From NCBI GenBank assembly GCA_013821605.1, contig JACDGP010000024.1, positions 1 to 52,178 on the forward strand: a stretch of 52,178 nt of DNA, written 5' to 3'. The notes beneath the pieces were generated by a model, which ran no database searches, was not told the origin of the DNA, and saw nothing but the letters and a program-made list of their open reading frames with translations. Source of the DNA: Herpetosiphonaceae bacterium. Lineage in GTDB: Bacteria; Chloroflexota; Chloroflexia; Chloroflexales; Kallotenuaceae. The position numbers were made by a program, and so were the translations under genes. Below are positions 4,468-11,122 of this stretch, one piece after another; position 1 is the stretch's first letter; the number at the start of each line of letters is the position of its first letter.

Positions 4468-5929
4468 CAAATTCCCTCCCGTTCCTGCGGTGAATTTGAG
4501 TGCCGCAAGCACAATCGTTCAGGAGCGACAATACGAACTAATTACACCATTGTGCGGGGGTGGCGTCGATCCTTTCGAGCCTGATCCTCAAACACTCATT
4601 CGCGGTACGTCGATTCGTGGGCATTTGCGTTTTTGGTGGCGTGCCTGTCGTGGGGGACAGTTTGGGCCTCATTTAGCAGATATGAAGCGGTACGAAGATG
4701 TGTTATGGGGGGCCGCAAGCACCTCTGCTCAGCCCCGACCATCACAGGTGCAGATTGTGGTTTCTAGCATCAAGCCAGGTGAGGATAGCTACCCGTTCGT
4801 CATTCAACCGAATCAGCAAGGCCGCCGAGTTGTGAGGGCGAACAATAATGTCGCCCCTGCATATGCTGCTTTTCCTCTCCAACCAACTCAAGAAGAGGTC
4901 CAGGCAGACGTGGAAACCAAAAGGGTTAAGGCTGGAGTTGAGTTTACGCTGCGTATATTGTTTCCTGAAAACATTAAGCTCGAAAATACGAAATGGGACA
5001 TACAGCCAGAGATTGCAGCTGCGCTCTGGTGCTGGGAAACATTCGGTGGACTGGGGGCACGCACTCGGCGCGGCTTTGGTGCACTCCGACTTCTTGCTGT
5101 GCAGCAGGGACCGGATAAGAAGCCAGTCCCGCTTGATATGCCGCCCGCTGACCAGCAGCAAGCACACGCTTGGATCAGGCAACACCTTCAAGCGCATCAG
5201 CAGAGCAGTTTCACTCAAGAACAAACATGGCCTAATGCTGTACCACATCTCGATCCTCTGCTTGATACCGATACACTCAGAGTCACAGCTGTTTCCAATC
5301 AAACCAACCAAAAACCCTCACGCCTTGCATTTGAACGCTGGAACGATTTGATTGAAGGACTCAAAGCGTTTCGCCAACAGCGGCGCGAGATTCCCGGTGG
5401 GCCGGGGATCCCTCGTCAAATTGGACGTAACCACTGGCCCGAGCCTGACTCAATCCGCATGTGGACACGACAGCATCTCCACCCGCGCCATGCCCAGCCT
5501 GTCTCATTGGATCCCAATTTCCCCGTAGGAACGTTTCCTCGAGCAGTCTTTGGACTACCGATTGAAACTCAATTCAAAGACCGGAACAGGCACAACCTTA
5601 ACGCTCCACATGCCGATCCCCGCAAAACTGTGCTGCAGCTTAAGCAGAGAGAGCGCCTCGCCAGCCCCCTTATTTTGCGCCCGTTAACCTGCGCTGGTGG
5701 TAAGGCCGTTGGGCTAGCGTTGCTGCTGAAAGGCTGTACAGTACAGGATGCTGTACAAGCGGGTGATACTCTGCAGCTCAAGACCAGGGATGGTGCGCGC
5801 GCCGAATGGACTGTGACATCAGACCTTACTCCCGCCGCATCCTTAGCTATATCGACGAAAGATGGACATACCTCCTTGCTCGGAGGAGAAACCAATATCC
5901 TCAAAGCCTTTCTCGACACACTAGCGTAG
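4454..5929 (+). CDS. cmr1: Type III-B CRISPR RAMP protein Cmr1
   Basis: A 491-residue head subunit of the Cmr complex, near the crRNA 3' end and involved in target binding. The family signature RGTSIRGHLRFWWRACRGG lies at residues 50-68. A second motif, FGGLGARTRRGFGALRL, resembles the glycine-rich loop of RAMP domains, so a double-RAMP fold is expected. AGGAG precedes the ATG inside the cmr3 end, so the two genes are coupled. The protein ends 10 bp before cmr4. Nothing suggests decay. Confidence 0.93.
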   Translation: MRPTDKFPPVPAVNLSAASTIVQERQYELITPLCGGGVDPFEPDPQTLIRGTSIRGHLRFWWRACRGGQFGPHLADMKRYEDVLWGAASTSAQPRPSQVQIVVSSIKPGEDSYPFVIQPNQQGRRVVRANNNVAPAYAAFPLQPTQEEVQADVETKRVKAGVEFTLRILFPENIKLENTKWDIQPEIAAALWCWETFGGLGARTRRGFGALRLLAVQQGPDKKPVPLDMPPADQQQAHAWIRQHLQAHQQSSFTQEQTWPNAVPHLDPLLDTDTLRVTAVSNQTNQKPSRLAFERWNDLIEGLKAFRQQRREIPGGPGIPRQIGRNHWPEPDSIRMWTRQHLHPRHAQPVSLDPNFPVGTFPRAVFGLPIETQFKDRNRHNLNAPHADPRKTVLQLKQRERLASPLILRPLTCAGGKAVGLALLLKGCTVQDAVQAGDTLQLKTRDGARAEWTVTSDLTPAASLAISTKDGHTSLLGGETNILKAFLDTLA

Positions 5930-5939
5930 GAGACCGCTG

Positions 5940-6857
5940 ATGAATGCGCGCTTGTTCTTCGTACACGCCCTGTCGCCATTACATGCCGGAACCGGTCAGG
6001 GAATTGATGTGATCGATTTGCCGATTGCCCGCGAGAAGGCTACTGGTATACCCTTTTTGCCGGGGTCGTCGCTCAAGGGTCCACTCCGTGACCGTTGCAG
6101 TACAGGACAGAATAGCAACATGTGTGATCGGCTCTTTGGTCGCGCGAGTGACAATGATAGTGCGCAGAGCACTGCAGGATCGGCTCAGTTTAGCGACGCG
6201 CGGCTGTTGCTTCTACCTGTGCGGACGCTTGTTGGCACCTTCGCTTGGGTGACCTCGCCCTATGTATTGCACCGCTTTATGCGTGACGCACATGACGCCA
6301 ACATCAACAATCTTCCCCATTCTATTCCACAGCCTGTCCTGAACGCAGAATCTTCGGAAGGCATTGTGTTCGGGAACGACTCATTGATTACGATGCCTCA
6401 TGGTAACCAGCAACAGATCATTCTCGAAGACTTGGATCTTCGTTTACGAAGCATTTCAGCCGAAGATGATAATCAAAATTGGGCAGCATGGTTAGGCCGC
6501 ACCTTTTTTCCGGATTCCCCATCACTCTTCCATCGCCGCTTTTGCATTGTCCATGATACGATCTTCGATTTTTTACTGAAAACGGCCACCGAAATTACGG
6601 CCCGTATCAGTATGGAAGCAACGACCAAAACCGCGAACAACTTATGGTACGAAGAGTCCTTGCCTACAGAAAGTATCCTGACCGGCTTGATCGTATACAC
6701 GCCAGTGCGAGCGAGTGATTTATCGGATGCGCAGGTCTTCGAGACGGTCACATCCTTGATGGACCAAACCATTCAATTAGGTGGCAAAGCAACTGTGGGT
6801 CGTGGCTTGTGCCGGGTAGGAATGATCAAGGAGGCTAAGAAAGATGAAAACGCGTGA
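5940..6857 (+). CDS. cmr4: Type III-B CRISPR RAMP protein Cmr4 (target-RNA endonuclease backbone)
   Basis: A 305-residue repeated backbone subunit that cuts bound target RNA at regular 6-nt intervals. The N terminus reads HALSPLHAGTGQGIDVIDLP. The aspartate of VIDLPI is residue 26, the position of the catalytic Asp in characterised Cmr4, so slicing activity should be intact. FLPGSSLKGPLR is the conserved RAMP loop, and GGKATVGRGLCRV near the C terminus is the G-rich loop. A TAGGAGA ribosome site precedes ATG 5940. The 3' end overlaps cmr5 by 14 bp. Confidence 0.95.
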   Translation: MNARLFFVHALSPLHAGTGQGIDVIDLPIAREKATGIPFLPGSSLKGPLRDRCSTGQNSNMCDRLFGRASDNDSAQSTAGSAQFSDARLLLLPVRTLVGTFAWVTSPYVLHRFMRDAHDANINNLPHSIPQPVLNAESSEGIVFGNDSLITMPHGNQQQIILEDLDLRLRSISAEDDNQNWAAWLGRTFFPDSPSLFHRRFCIVHDTIFDFLLKTATEITARISMEATTKTANNLWYEESLPTESILTGLIVYTPVRASDLSDAQVFETVTSLMDQTIQLGGKATVGRGLCRVGMIKEAKKDENA

Positions 6858-7212
6858 TCAACGCTATGCACAGAGTGCGTGGGACCGAGTGTCACAGGTT
6901 GATCAGCCACTGCGTGACAAATACGGAGCGATGGCTCATCAACTACCGATCTTAATTCTGAGTGCGGGGCTCACCCAGGCATTGGCATTTGTAGACTCTC
7001 GCAAAGATGCTGCATGTGATGCATTGCTTGATGATGTAGCACACACGATCGGTTTGTCCAATCGTGCAACATTACGGAGCCAGAGCCATACATTAAGCCT
7101 GCAAGAATACATGTGGCTGACCCAACAAGTGCTAGCAGCTCTCCTATGGTATAAGCGATTTGCAGAATCGGTGATGAATGTTGACACACGTAAGAGCGGA
7201 GTGTTGTCATGA
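6844..7212 (+). CDS. cmr5: Type III-B CRISPR small subunit Cmr5
   Basis: A 122-residue, mostly helical small subunit that stacks along the Cmr4 filament and stabilises the complex. RYAQSAWDRV, then DKYGAMAHQLPILILSAGL and QALAFVDSR, reproduce the conserved Cmr5 core (KYGxLAHxLPxLIxxxGLxQALAF). It sits between cmr4 (14-bp overlap) and cmr6 (4-bp ATGA overlap), as expected for coupled expression in fixed stoichiometry. Confidence 0.93.
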   Translation: MKTRDQRYAQSAWDRVSQVDQPLRDKYGAMAHQLPILILSAGLTQALAFVDSRKDAACDALLDDVAHTIGLSNRATLRSQSHTLSLQEYMWLTQQVLAALLWYKRFAESVMNVDTRKSGVLS

Positions 7213-8294
7213 TTGCCCGTCGCCCAACGTTGGCAGGCGTTAGCCACTCTATGTCAACAAATGCTGGTTTGTGGCTCGATAAATACCTCAGGGAGCAACG
7301 CGAACGCGACACACACGAGCACGAGCAGGGGCAGGCGACCATACAAGCACGCCAGGAATTGATTCGTCAAGCCGTTACAATTCCAGTCCCCGAGATGTAT
7401 CCTGCCTATTATCAACGCTGGCAACAAGCATTGGTTCAGCACGGCGCACGTCCACGGTCAGCGAAGGTACAGGGCCGGATGGTCATCGGCCTGGGTGATG
7501 AGAGCGTGCTGGAAACAGCTGTAGCCTTGCATCATACCTATGGAGTACCATACATTCCTGGAAGCGCTTTAAAGGGTTTAGCAGCCAGCTTTACACAACA
7601 ACTCGAAGACAAACAGTGGCATCCGGATGGCGAAGCATACGCGATTGTGTTTGGTACGCCCGAGCAAGCTGGCTTTATCATCTTTTGGGACGCTTTGTAT
7701 GTTCCAGGCTCTGCCGTTGAGGACCAACCTCTATGTGCCGATGTGATGACCGTCCATCATCCAGAATACTATCAAAACAAGAATTCCGCTCCGGCAGATT
7801 GGGATAGTCCAACGCCAATTCCATTTTTGAGTGCGACCGGTGCCTATCTCGTTGCATTGACTGCCCAGCCCGGTCTGGAAGTATGGGTTGATGCCACATT
7901 TGAGATTCTTGGCACGGCATTGGTCAACGCGGGCATCGGTGGGAAAACTTCGAGTGGGTACGGACGATTGAGCTTAGATTTAGCTGTGGCAGATCCCGCT
8001 ACGCCTGAGCGTAGTCTTATGCTGACTCAAACATCAGGCCAGGATGCTCAAGGGCAACAATCTGTTACACCATCTAAAGGAGCTATAGTTACTGGACAAA
8101 TCACGCTGCTCCGTCATGACAAGTGGGCAGAAGTTCGGCTCAATAAGCTACCTCCGTCAGTGATTGGTCTGTTATCACCTGATCAATCATTGGGTCAAGC
8201 GTCAGGAGGCATTCGGGCACGGATTATCCGCCAGGAGCAGCAAGGTGGGGTTACCTATCTCTTACTTGAGCGAGTGAAGAAGGATCAGCTATGA
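7209..8294 (+). CDS. cmr6: Type III-B CRISPR RAMP protein Cmr6 with a C-terminal extension
   Basis: A 361-residue head subunit of the Cmr complex. YGVPYIPGSALKGLAAS (residues 111-127) is the RAMP insertion motif, and GIGGKTSSGYGRLSL (242-256) is the C-terminal glycine-rich loop where many Cmr6 proteins end. Here about 100 residues follow: a polar linker (about 258-290), then a compact beta-rich segment beginning AIVTGQITLLRHDKWAEVRL. The extension could be an extra RNA-binding (OB-like) element; this is a guess from the strand pattern only. GGAG lies upstream of the ATG, which overlaps the cmr5 stop; the 3' end overlaps the CARF gene (ATGA). Confidence 0.9.
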   Translation: MIARRPTLAGVSHSMSTNAGLWLDKYLREQRERDTHEHEQGQATIQARQELIRQAVTIPVPEMYPAYYQRWQQALVQHGARPRSAKVQGRMVIGLGDESVLETAVALHHTYGVPYIPGSALKGLAASFTQQLEDKQWHPDGEAYAIVFGTPEQAGFIIFWDALYVPGSAVEDQPLCADVMTVHHPEYYQNKNSAPADWDSPTPIPFLSATGAYLVALTAQPGLEVWVDATFEILGTALVNAGIGGKTSSGYGRLSLDLAVADPATPERSLMLTQTSGQDAQGQQSVTPSKGAIVTGQITLLRHDKWAEVRLNKLPPSVIGLLSPDQSLGQASGGIRARIIRQEQQGGVTYLLLERVKKDQL

Positions 8295-9016
8295 GGCCAC
8301 GCACTGTTGCCGACGTCGTACGAACAATATTCGATCCTGGAGCAACAGCGCTGTTTATCTTCGGGTCTATCATTCTATCGGTGCTTGGCAACGGAGTATA
8401 CGACTTAGCCAGAGACCGCTTAGGTACAGCACCTAGTACGACTTGGAAAATTGTCCTCGGTTCGTTAGTTATTTTTGTCTTCACAGTCTTTCTCTTACTC
8501 CTATGGTGGCGGACCCGGAAACTGCCGCAGCAAGTATTAGTATCTGATGAGCGGCGTTCCGAGCCACAGCCAGGACTCATTGTTTTAGTCGGACCAGGCG
8601 ACATCGACAAGACACCCGAACAGCCCGCTATTTTGTCACATGTAGAAGAGGTGATGCTACGTTATTGCTGGCTCATAGCTTCTCCAGAAGCAGTCAAAAA
8701 TGGGAAGACCGATCAGTTAGAACGCTTGGTGCGAACCAACAGTGCCGAGCCATATACCATCCCGATCCAAGATGGCTACCAGGCACGGATGGCATACAAG
8801 GCAGTTGAAGAAGCACTTGATCAGGCGCGGCGCTTACTTGGTGACCTGCCGCTGGTTGTGGATATTACTGGAGGCACGAAACCAATGACTGCTGGCGCAG
8901 TTCTCGCATGTCGCGATTACCAAGTACCTGTCGAGTATATGCTGGGTAAATACAACAACGTCGGTGTGCGCGATCCACGTATCGGCTCGCAAGCGGTGAA
9001 AGTCGACCTTGTATAG
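8291..9016 (+). CDS. Membrane-anchored CARF-domain protein (candidate cOA-gated membrane effector)
   Basis: A 241-residue protein whose first 75 residues hold two hydrophobic segments, about 18-37 (ATALFIFGSIILSVLG) and about 53-73 (WKIVLGSLVIFVFTVFLLLL). A soluble domain follows from about residue 93. That domain begins PGLIVLVGPGD and contains VVDITGGTKPMTAGAVLA (189-206), the strand-loop signature of CARF cyclic-nucleotide sensors. No nuclease, protease or deaminase domain is present. Known analogues are Cam1-type CARF membrane proteins, which depolarise the membrane when cOA binds; described Cam1 has one helix, this protein appears to have two. Overlap with cmr6 (ATGA) places it inside the Cmr operon. 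The CARF assignment is strong; membrane-effector function is inferred. Confidence 0.82.
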   Translation: MRPRTVADVVRTIFDPGATALFIFGSIILSVLGNGVYDLARDRLGTAPSTTWKIVLGSLVIFVFTVFLLLLWWRTRKLPQQVLVSDERRSEPQPGLIVLVGPGDIDKTPEQPAILSHVEEVMLRYCWLIASPEAVKNGKTDQLERLVRTNSAEPYTIPIQDGYQARMAYKAVEEALDQARRLLGDLPLVVDITGGTKPMTAGAVLACRDYQVPVEYMLGKYNNVGVRDPRIGSQAVKVDLV

Positions 9017-9030
9017 AGAGAGTTGCGCTC

Positions 9031-10197
9031 ATGACAAAATGTGGACTATTAGTTCTGATCGGTGGGCGTCAAATTCCCAATATCCTGACCGCGCAGTATT
9101 TACAGCCCGACGTCATTCTGCCCGTTGCTTCACACGAAGCGATGCGAGCTAATGGAATATGGGAACGTGTGGCACCTGTGCTCAACCAACTATGCCCCGA
9201 AGGTGTCGCCGCACCGCTCGTCGTGGATGCTTTTGAACTTGAACAAACGTATAGTGGTATTCAAGCCGCGCTCGATAACTATCCAAATACTACATGGATT
9301 TTCAATATCACGTGTGCCACAACGATTATGAGTATCGCTGCTTATAAAGTTGGGCTAGAGCGCGGTGCGACGGTTTGGTATCTTGATACAGCAACACGAC
9401 GCATCACGTCATTGAATGGTACAGCAGGTTCTAAGGAAGTATATCACTTGGGGGTTGCCAATTATCTTACCGTCTATGGTCGGCAAAGTAAAGCCGTCGG
9501 TCCAGATCCATCGCCCCAGCAGCTTGCTTTCGCTCGGCAACTCGCGCAGTATCCTCAATCCGCAATGGCGTTTCGGGAAGCACTACGTACTGCTAAAGCT
9601 AACGTGGGCAAAATAACGCAGTCGCGCAACTTGAATCTACCGAGTGATCCTATGACACCAATATGGTGCGAGGCGGCACAACAGGCCGGGCTTCTAAACG
9701 AATATGTGCTCAACGCCGACGGTGTAATACATTGTCGCTTGCCTGATGGTCGACTTTGGCAATGGATGGATGGGCTATGGCTTGAAATATATGCTTTGGC
9801 AGCAGCGCTAGATGTTGGATGTTTCGATGACTGTTGTTACGGGCTAGTTATTCCAGGTGAGTATGGTACAAATGACCTTGATCTTGCAATTACATATCTA
9901 GCATCGCTGTTGATAGCTGAATGCAAAACTGAGGAACAGCCATTTGAAACAGAGCATCTTGACAAACTCTGTACCAAGGCCAATATGGTTGGCGGCAATT
10001 TTGTTGGCCGTATCTTCATTAGCAGCCAAACTGTTAGTGCCCGCAACCAGCAGCAATACGAGCGTTTCTGCAATCAGGCTCGTGAACGACAGATCGTGGT
10101 CGTAACAGGCGAGGAGTTGCAGGATTTACGTGCCATTCTAGAACGGGAAGCAGGTGTCGATGTACCACGACAATTTCCTACCTATGCACGAGGGTAA
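9031..10197 (+). CDS. card1: Card1/Can2-like CARF nuclease (DUF1887 family)
   Basis: A 388-residue two-domain protein. The N-terminal half (1-150) is a CARF fold: LLVLIGGRQIPNILTAQYL, then TTWIFNITCATTIMSIAAYK with the ligand loop. The C-terminal half carries PD-(D/E)XK nuclease motifs: E252 in GLWLEIYAL, D284 in GTNDLDLAI and E297-x-K299 in LIAECKTE. This layout and length match DUF1887 proteins such as Card1 and Can2, which when bound by cOA cut RNA and/or nick supercoiled or single-stranded DNA. All motif residues are present, so activity is likely. It lies 14 bp after the membrane CARF gene and 4 bp before csx15, so it is probably co-transcribed with the Cmr complex that makes its activator. 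Confidence 0.88.
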   Translation: MTKCGLLVLIGGRQIPNILTAQYLQPDVILPVASHEAMRANGIWERVAPVLNQLCPEGVAAPLVVDAFELEQTYSGIQAALDNYPNTTWIFNITCATTIMSIAAYKVGLERGATVWYLDTATRRITSLNGTAGSKEVYHLGVANYLTVYGRQSKAVGPDPSPQQLAFARQLAQYPQSAMAFREALRTAKANVGKITQSRNLNLPSDPMTPIWCEAAQQAGLLNEYVLNADGVIHCRLPDGRLWQWMDGLWLEIYALAAALDVGCFDDCCYGLVIPGEYGTNDLDLAITYLASLLIAECKTEEQPFETEHLDKLCTKANMVGGNFVGRIFISSQTVSARNQQQYERFCNQARERQIVVVTGEELQDLRAILEREAGVDVPRQFPTYARG

Positions 10198-10201
10198 CCC
10201 A

Positions 10202-10579
10202 ATGCTCCTCCTCAACTTCTCCCATCCCCTCACCGACGAACACCAAGCCCAGCTTGCCGCACTCCTCGGCACATCACCAACGGTACGCGACATACCCGTT
10301 AACATCGACCGCAGTCTCCCCCTCGCCGATGCCGCCTTAGAACTCGTCGCAGCCGCCAACCTATCACCTGTGGAATGGCAGACCGAGCCGCTCCTCATCA
10401 ATCCTCCCGGCCTAGCCCCGCTTGCCCTCGTATTGATCGCCACAATCCATGGCCGCTGTGGTTACTTCCCGCCCATCCTCAATATCCGTCCAATTCTTGA
10501 TTCCCTGCCGCCCCGTTTCGAGATCGCCGAGATCGTCAACCTCCAACCTTTGCGCGACGAAGGCCGCGCCACCCGCTAG
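10202..10579 (+). CDS. csx15: CRISPR-associated protein Csx15, probable cOA ring nuclease
   Basis: A 125-residue protein starting MLLLNFSHPLTDEHQAQLAA, the hallmark opening of Csx15. Later motifs are LLINPPGLAPLALVLIATI and the conserved stretch GRCGYFPPILNIRPI (about residues 83-97). ATG 10202 is chosen because GAGGGT lies about 7 bases upstream and because the family starts there; an earlier in-frame ATG would overlap card1. Csx15 has been proposed to be a ring nuclease that degrades the cOA messenger. That role fits its place directly behind two CARF effectors, but it is family knowledge and not visible in the residues. Codon use is C-ending like cas6, unlike the genes between. Confidence 0.78.
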   Translation: MLLLNFSHPLTDEHQAQLAALLGTSPTVRDIPVNIDRSLPLADAALELVAAANLSPVEWQTEPLLINPPGLAPLALVLIATIHGRCGYFPPILNIRPILDSLPPRFEIAEIVNLQPLRDEGRATR

Positions 10580-10626
10580 CACCTCCAGATTGTCATCAAC
10601 CTGTCATCCAATACGCAGAACTGATG

Positions 10627-10635
10627 TGCTATAAT
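10627..10635 (+). promoter_or_regulatory. Strong extended -10 promoter reading into the 10.64-11.15 kb non-coding region
   Basis: TGC-TATAAT (10627-10635) is a perfect -10 with extended TGN. Transcription would start near 10642, just after csx15, into a region of more than 500 bp without a convincing gene. The product could be a long leader of the zinc-ribbon gene at 11153 or a non-coding RNA. No -35 hexamer is seen at standard spacing (TTGTCA and CTGTCA upstream are too far). Confidence 0.5.
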
Positions 10636-10697: not shown

Positions 10698-10755
10698 CAT
10701 TGTTCCCATTGTTTTGGTTGTTAAATCATTGTTATTGCGTTGATCTTTCATTGTT
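10698..10755. repeat. Four CATTGTT direct motifs in a T-rich segment
   Basis: CATTGTT occurs at 10698, 10707, 10727 and 10749, spaced 9, 20 and 22 bp, so roughly on one face of the helix. The reverse complement AACAATG occurs once more at 10882-10888. No gene is supported here: short frames crossing it have no family features and low-complexity composition. It could be a protein-binding cluster; function unknown. Confidence 0.5.
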
Positions 10756-10917
10756 TTTTGGTCGTCCCAAAGCACAAAGAACAACGAAAATCCTTGATTT
10801 CCATTGCATCCTCCAAAACGCTTTTTCCTTTTGCCATCACCTAAAATCGCTCTTCGAGACGCTTCGAAATCCCCCATTGCGAACAATGGAACAAGCAACC
10901 TGCGCCTCACCGAACTT

Positions 10918-11111
10918 GTACCAAAAAACCACCCTCAGCGTATCAGTACCAAATGTACCAAAGTTGAACGTGTTTGTACCAAAAATGCACCAAAACGTAC
11001 CAAAGCTGAACCTATTTGTACCAAGCAGCGTGTACCACAAATCCCCCGACTGTACCAAAACTGAACGTATTTGTACCAAACGCCATGCTCATTTGCGTAC
11101 CAGAGCGTACC
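10918..11111. repeat. Phased array of eleven GTACC(AAA) motifs
   Basis: GTACC, mostly followed by AAA, begins at 10918, 10946, 10955, 10976, 10997, 11018, 11032, 11052, 11073, 11097 and 11107, with a GCACC variant at 10987. Most spacings are 9-11 or 20-21 bp. Three copies extend to a longer unit with TGAAC between motifs (around 10964, 11007 and 11062). The half-site TTTGTACCAAA is nearly palindromic. The last two motifs overlap the -35/spacer region of the promoter at 11114-11122. This resembles a multi-operator or iteron array rather than CRISPR; there are no equal-length unique spacers. Confidence 0.75.
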
Positions 11112-11113
11112 AT

Positions 11114-11122
11114 TGGTATGAT
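11114..11122 (+). promoter_or_regulatory. Extended -10 promoter of the zinc-ribbon membrane gene
   Basis: TGG-TATGAT (11114-11122) lies directly after the GTACC array. Transcription would start near 11129, leaving a short leader with AGAGG before ATG 11153. GTACC motifs at 11097 and 11107 would cover the -35 and spacer, so a protein bound to the array could control this promoter. Inference from position. Confidence 0.4.

Follow-up and report, generated by a model that had tools for sequence, protein, structure and literature searches.

A GTACC motif array in a Herpetosiphonaceae genome and a dispersed family of modular cassettes with putative LexA-type promoters

A dense run of GTACC motifs ahead of a gene for a zinc-ribbon/DUF4190 membrane protein raises the question of what might read such a sequence, and whether it serves this gene in particular. 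The stretch of DNA analysed (52,178 nucleotides of one contig of a Herpetosiphonaceae bacterium) is called the window below; the data on further copies come from one genome (259 contigs).

The array in the window

The earlier note on this locus counted eleven GTACC motifs and one GCACC variant in 194 bp, and this count was borne out, with every site on the + strand (Table 1). In the window, GTACCAAA occurs 10 times against an expectation of 1.08, a number reached by none of 100 shuffled sequences, and seven of these 10 occurrences fall inside the array. With 10 occurrences where about one is expected, the array is thus real and far from chance. Most sites had also been placed on the same helix face. 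The distances between successive GTACC sites (28, 9, 21, 21, 21, 14, 20, 21, 24 and 10) are dominated by 21, and the modal site spacing of the arrays is likewise 21 bp. However, the window copy showed no significant phasing at 10.5 bp (R = 0.36, p = 0.26), p ≤ 0.05 was reached by only about seven of 26 arrays (each time with a modest effect), and the array family as a whole is fitted about equally well by a period of 7 bp and by one of 10.5-11 bp. A coding repeat was considered as well and rejected; read in certain frames, the 21-nt units resemble repeats of 7 residues, but no frame survives the spacings of 7, 10, 14 and 20-23.

Concerning the promoter that was proposed under the last two sites, a TTGCGT/TATGAT pair is visible there, but it remained below the threshold of a consensus promoter scan, and the better promoter at this locus is the upstream one at 10618-10635, which lies 282 bases ahead of the array. 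The sigma-70 consensus scan did not report this upstream promoter, because its -35 element is weak. The array stops 41 bp upstream of the start codon of the zinc-ribbon/DUF4190 gene and probably lies within the 5' leader of this gene. Directly upstream of the whole element, at 5940-10579, type III-B CRISPR genes are found (Cmr4, Cmr6, a CARF-transmembrane protein, a Card1-like CARF-nuclease and Csx15). A link of the arrays to CRISPR/type III was considered and rejected, as other copies do not follow such genes.

Table 1. Features of the cassette in the window and of the gene that follows it
Feature	Position	Strand	Basis
LexA/SOS-like box GAACTGATGTGC (module P)	10618..10629	+	pattern match; geometry of own recA and lexA boxes
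-10 element TATAAT, extended -10 type (TGC-TATAAT)	10630..10635	+	sequence; directly 3' of box
Module C	10698..10888	+	profile match within the window (64.5 bits, E 2.5e-19); homologous by blastn to 30-odd copies in the genome
Module A (GTACC array)	10918..11111	+	motif positions and homologous arrays at 17 other loci
GTACC starts	10918, 10946, 10955, 10976, 10997, 11018, 11032, 11052, 11073, 11097, 11107	+	sequence
GTATC, leader site	10940	+	sequence
GCACC variant	10987	+	sequence
Weak promoter-like pair TTGCGT (11093-11098) / TATGAT (11117-11122)	11093..11122	+	seen in sequence; overlaps last two array sites
Zinc-ribbon/DUF4190 membrane protein gene, 180 aa	11153..11695	+	Pfam Zn_Ribbon_1 and DUF4190

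A dispersed family of modular cassettes

The frame of the earlier note was too narrow, as the parent cassette (with its promoter and CATTG module) and its ~45 copies were overlooked. A genome-wide search for two GTACCAAA motifs within 20 bases gave 56 matches versus none for the reversed pattern. Clusters of the motif are thus strongly over-represented, whereas single GTACCAAA motifs outside the cassettes stay at background (in 173 kb, seven occurrences against four of the motif reversed). The genome holds 26 arrays of common layout, i.e., 18 GTACC arrays (window copy included) and eight GTAAC arrays, in which GTAACAAA replaces GTACCAAA. They are part of ~45-48 cassette loci, of which ~22 possess module C only (some of them truncated). 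The cassettes are 0.4-0.6 kb long, intergenic and modular, being built of P (promoter), A (array) and C (CATTG module). The GTACC arrays have a leader site (GTGTACCAggaaaaa), GTATCA, and GTACCAT 7 bases ahead of the next site; their core consists of 21-mers such as GTACCAAAGTTGAACGTAAAT, and they end with closing sites (e.g., GTACCAC..GAGGCC and GTACCACCGCTTCGC). Module A is always located downstream of P and is read in the direction of P, and most arrays begin 45-110 bp after GAACATATGTGTTATAAT or GAACATATGTTTGC...TGGTATAAT. The order P-C-A found ahead of the zinc-ribbon/DUF4190 gene is unique to the window copy, the other copies being arranged as P-A-C, P-C or P-A.

The genes downstream of the cassettes are unrelated to each other. 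They encode a hydrolase, a DUF2961 protein, a DinB-like protein, a TPP enzyme, an AAA/Mg-chelatase-like ATPase, a thioesterase, isocitrate/isopropylmalate dehydrogenase, PALP enzymes and a radical SAM/TRAM protein, among others. This bears on the possibility that the array is an ordinary operator cluster through which one regulator controls the zinc-ribbon/DUF4190 gene. The short distance between the end of the array and the start codon speaks for such a cluster, but the array is absent before the orthologues examined (genomes G001 and G004), and the 17 other GTACC arrays precede other genes; already contradicted by the dispersed copies, this explanation is highly improbable. Of the outcome that the earlier note had named as contradicting its reading, one half was found (no array ahead of the orthologues, and a background frequency of lone motifs elsewhere), but the other was not, given the excess of clusters. 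Note also that a T-box leader is present near one cassette (C109; L093 277-498, - strand), where it probably belongs to a leucyl-tRNA synthetase-like gene.

An iteron-like replication or partition element, as suggested earlier, appears scarcely credible. Iterons, to which Rep proteins bind, and the arrays at transposon ends, which are bound by TnsB-like proteins, consist of direct repeats of ~21-22 bp in one orientation, and the cassette arrays share this property. However, here we deal with 26 chromosomal arrays dispersed over about 25 contigs and joined to LexA-type promoters; each array is single-sided, neither Rep nor transposase is linked to it, there is no plasmid or phage match, and no replication initiator gene adjoins the cassettes among the neighbours examined, which include type III CRISPR genes, genes of metabolism and further unrelated ones.

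Among the genomes searched, the cassettes are confined, as judged by pattern and profile searches, to one genome or lineage. In 60 relatives, the paired GTACCAAA pattern gave only single chance matches or, in G037, a perfect tandem repeat without relation to the arrays, and in 400 genomes of the phylum a triple pattern was found only in the own genome, besides one unrelated tandem repeat (G400). The two exceptions (G037:C50:8386-8483 and G400:C19:32276-32323) are perfect 18-bp and 14-bp tandem repeats that contain GTACCAAA and are apparently unrelated. A phage or plasmid origin was rejected too, as no match to phages or plasmids was found and three specific patterns had no exact match in viral contigs; looser patterns gave only chance or low-complexity matches. 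Literature searches did not reveal a description of this cassette family.

The promoter and the CATTG module

In module P, a LexA-like box (GAACNNNNGTKY) either immediately precedes an extended -10 element or overlaps with it. Promoters of the GAACNNNNGTTC type are known from LexA/SOS regulons with a Gram-positive-like LexA. The bacterium's own recA has the box GAACAGACGTGC-TATACT (GAACAGACGTGCTATACT), in the same geometry as in module P, and its own lexA gene carries the box GAACAGGTGTTC 101 bp ahead of the DNA-binding domain. The operator of module P is the same as these host operators, as would be expected of a LexA/SOS-regulated promoter, and we infer from this likeness that module P is under LexA control. 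Genome-wide, the pattern of box and -10 element gave 28 matches versus one for the reversed pattern, and a combined score of box and -10 element of ≥ 12 was reached by 21 of 44 cassettes, as compared to 12 of 400 windows chosen at random. In each of the five further family genomes, this geometry is present 10-13 times, ahead of genes that include recA; the excess in the present genome corresponds to the cassettes, which roughly double or triple the number of LexA-type promoters compared to family members. In contrast to the promoters of LexA/SOS regulons, however, the cassette promoter would drive array cassettes and not a DNA-repair gene.

A gene for a RecA-like ATPase has a LexA-type promoter in both G003 and G000 (L386, L101); this gene and recA point to an SOS regulon that is small and conserved within the family and in which the box adjoins an extended -10 element. 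Furthermore, in several family members (L395, L396, L399, L408) a LexA-type box touches the start of a conserved membrane-protein-like gene (MxYTxxMPGxxTHD...).

Module C (~190 bp) opens with CTATTGYTCCCATTGATCCCGTTGTTAAATCATTGTTATCGCATTGTTTTTCATTGCT, in which an invariant TTG recurs every 9-11 bases (in the window at 10698-10766), and ends with ATTGCTAGCAATG; class-2 copies have GATCAATGGGAACAATAG instead, which is complementary to the start of the module. The window copy closes with the palindrome-like CATTGCGAACAATG (10875-10888). The own genome contains 33 blast matches and 37 profile matches to module C, and no convincing match was found in 99 relatives. Comparison of the TTG columns reveals that whole units were gained and lost among the copies. 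One copy (L168; G000:C254) has additional GTTATCGCATT units; the number of C units therefore varies by whole 11-bp units. Another one (L077, ~5140-5230) is apparently interrupted by a transposase gene that looks IS110-like, judging by its start. Integron-like sites were considered for module C and rejected: a GTTRRRY-like GTTAAAT is present, but the order of the core sites is wrong.

Switching of motifs and possible readers of the arrays

The 18 GTACC arrays contain 163 GTACC and no GTAAC sites, and the eight GTAAC arrays contain 61 GTAAC and nine GTACC sites. The switch is not limited to the array core: three homologous sites outside it changed as well within conserved surroundings (Fisher p 0.008, 2e-5 and 0.007, with site counts tallied by hand). 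The palindromic double sites TGGTAC-AT-GTACCA and TGTTAC-AT-GTAACA are exact, with both arms switched, and are found only in the cassettes. A stand-alone operator of a regulator sharing this palindrome was looked for and dismissed, as no such operator was found outside the cassettes. The concerted change from GTACC to GTAAC, flanking sites included, points to a sequence-specific partner. In our reading, such a partner, which would have at least two specificities, has selected the motifs or has co-evolved with them. Of the regulator binding proposed in the earlier note, it is this sequence-specific partner that finds support; a regulator of the DUF4190 gene in particular does not, since the array is missing before orthologues and other copies precede unrelated genes. 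Part of the concerted switching could, however, reflect cassette exchange instead of selection. Indeed, the arrays of C117 and C181 are 94% identical over 135 bp with different flanks, so that block exchange contributes to the switching.

Such exchange leads to the question of whether the cassettes are a purely selfish, MITE-like small repeat, with an SOS promoter and arrays that serve their own spread and with uniformity brought about by recombination between copies. The dispersal ahead of unrelated genes and the confinement to one genome fit this explanation, as do the near-identical cores in differing surroundings, the internal deletion of C193, C29 and C137 (in which P and the 3' end are kept), the truncation of C153, C235 and C36 on the 5' side of C, and the inverted repeats flanking class-2 module C (potential hairpin, 92.5% paired). 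On the other hand, homology starts at the promoter without a recognisable inverted repeat, no transposase is consistently linked to the cassettes (transposase-like ORFs beside some of them look incidental), no clear target-site duplication was seen by eye at seven class-2 C modules, whose borders are uncertain, and single homologous sites switch their motif inside conserved surroundings. We consider a purely selfish repeat unlikely. As terminal inverted repeats of the whole cassette were not found (only class-2 module C is flanked by inverted repeats) and neither a clear target duplication nor a close relative with an empty site was seen, the cassette was not filed as a MITE.

The Correia repeat enclosed elements (CREE) known from Neisseria are, like further bacterial MITEs that bear promoters, short non-coding dispersed intergenic repeats that supply a promoter to their neighbours, are largely located 5' of genes and may hold inverted repeats and a site for a DNA-binding protein (IHF) (PMC2649163, PMC10969869). 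Small repeats of this sort, with a promoter, are the closest known kind in the way they work, and membership of the cassettes among them is putative. Both are present in many dispersed, non-coding and mostly intergenic copies between unrelated genes. The cassettes differ in their modular structure and size, in the LexA-type box of the promoter, in the two kinds of motif arrays with their motif classes, and in the strong divergence among copies.

Alternatively, the arrays could act as RNA. A transcript induced in the SOS response and carrying many unpaired GUACCAAA/GUAACAAA motifs might, by a logic like that of CsrB, capture a small RNA or a protein that binds RNA, or it might act in cis on the expression of the gene downstream. 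In sponge RNAs of the CsrB/RsmZ type, a single transcript repeats a short motif many times, as a cassette transcript would do as well; the cassettes differ from them by the lack of a hairpin-presented motif and of the CsrA motif, by their many genomic copies and by the 21-nt register. The array is always 3' of P and sense-oriented (163 sense to seven antisense sites, all downstream of the promoter), which would also be expected of a function as RNA. Flexible site spacings and an unstructured module A (no excess of folding, mean z -0.17) are in line with a sponge or leader too, and in cassettes with a complete C end the next gene is mostly on the same strand (21 of 29, a modest bias, tallied from the ORF table by a simple longest-ORF rule). 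However, a gene on the opposite strand is met at its 3' end by several of the copies, the GAAC/GTTC linker motif occurs in either orientation, and the palindromic double sites would bury the motif in a hairpin. Furthermore, no conserved RNA structure was found in A or in class-1 C (where folding is weak), covariation in the class-2 C hairpin was not above that of shuffles (82/500), and Rfam covariance models gave no match to cassettes at nine loci. A sponge or leader RNA is therefore a possibility, if a rather unlikely one.

We favour, with somewhat less than even confidence, the explanation that the array in the window represents the A part of a modular cassette which is dispersed through the genome and driven by a LexA-type promoter, and that the sites of the array, and probably those of C, are bound by proteins on double-stranded DNA. 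Copy number, architecture, motif classes, coordinated switching and lineage restriction can be read directly from the sequence. The palindromes, the linker in either orientation, the modal 21-bp spacing, the C sites at 9-11 bp and the absence of excess folding in A argue for DNA. Counting against this explanation are the failure to find a free-standing operator with the palindrome outside the cassettes and the non-significant helical phasing of the window copy. In the proposed mechanism, P would be induced in the SOS response and would transcribe A and C, often continuing into the next gene. Sequence-specific proteins of at least two specificities would bind the GTACC or GTAAC sites of A side by side on double-stranded DNA just downstream of the SOS promoter, and the C sites (ATTGYT) would probably be bound on double-stranded DNA as well. 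The bound array might either silence or gate the promoter as a roadblock, or concentrate the protein at the cassettes, and the cassettes may spread and swap their arrays via recombination or non-autonomous transposition. A more far-reaching and rather doubtful version is a lineage-specific SOS-triggered system, in which the arrays of ~45 scattered cassettes, once expressed or exposed, would titrate one of two sequence-specific partners (readers of GTACC and of GTAAC). They could serve, e.g., as decoys triggered by damage or phages, and would co-evolve with the specificity of the partners.

Small repeats of bacteria are usually viewed as transposon relics. Here, ~45 repeats in one genome look as if they were wired to an apparent DNA-damage response, and the concerted change of motifs in their arrays records how a recognition code has switched its specificity in nature. 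If confirmed, the cassettes would represent a young, fast-evolving regulatory layer made of repeats, and would provide a clean setting in which to search for the reader of the arrays, be it protein or RNA.
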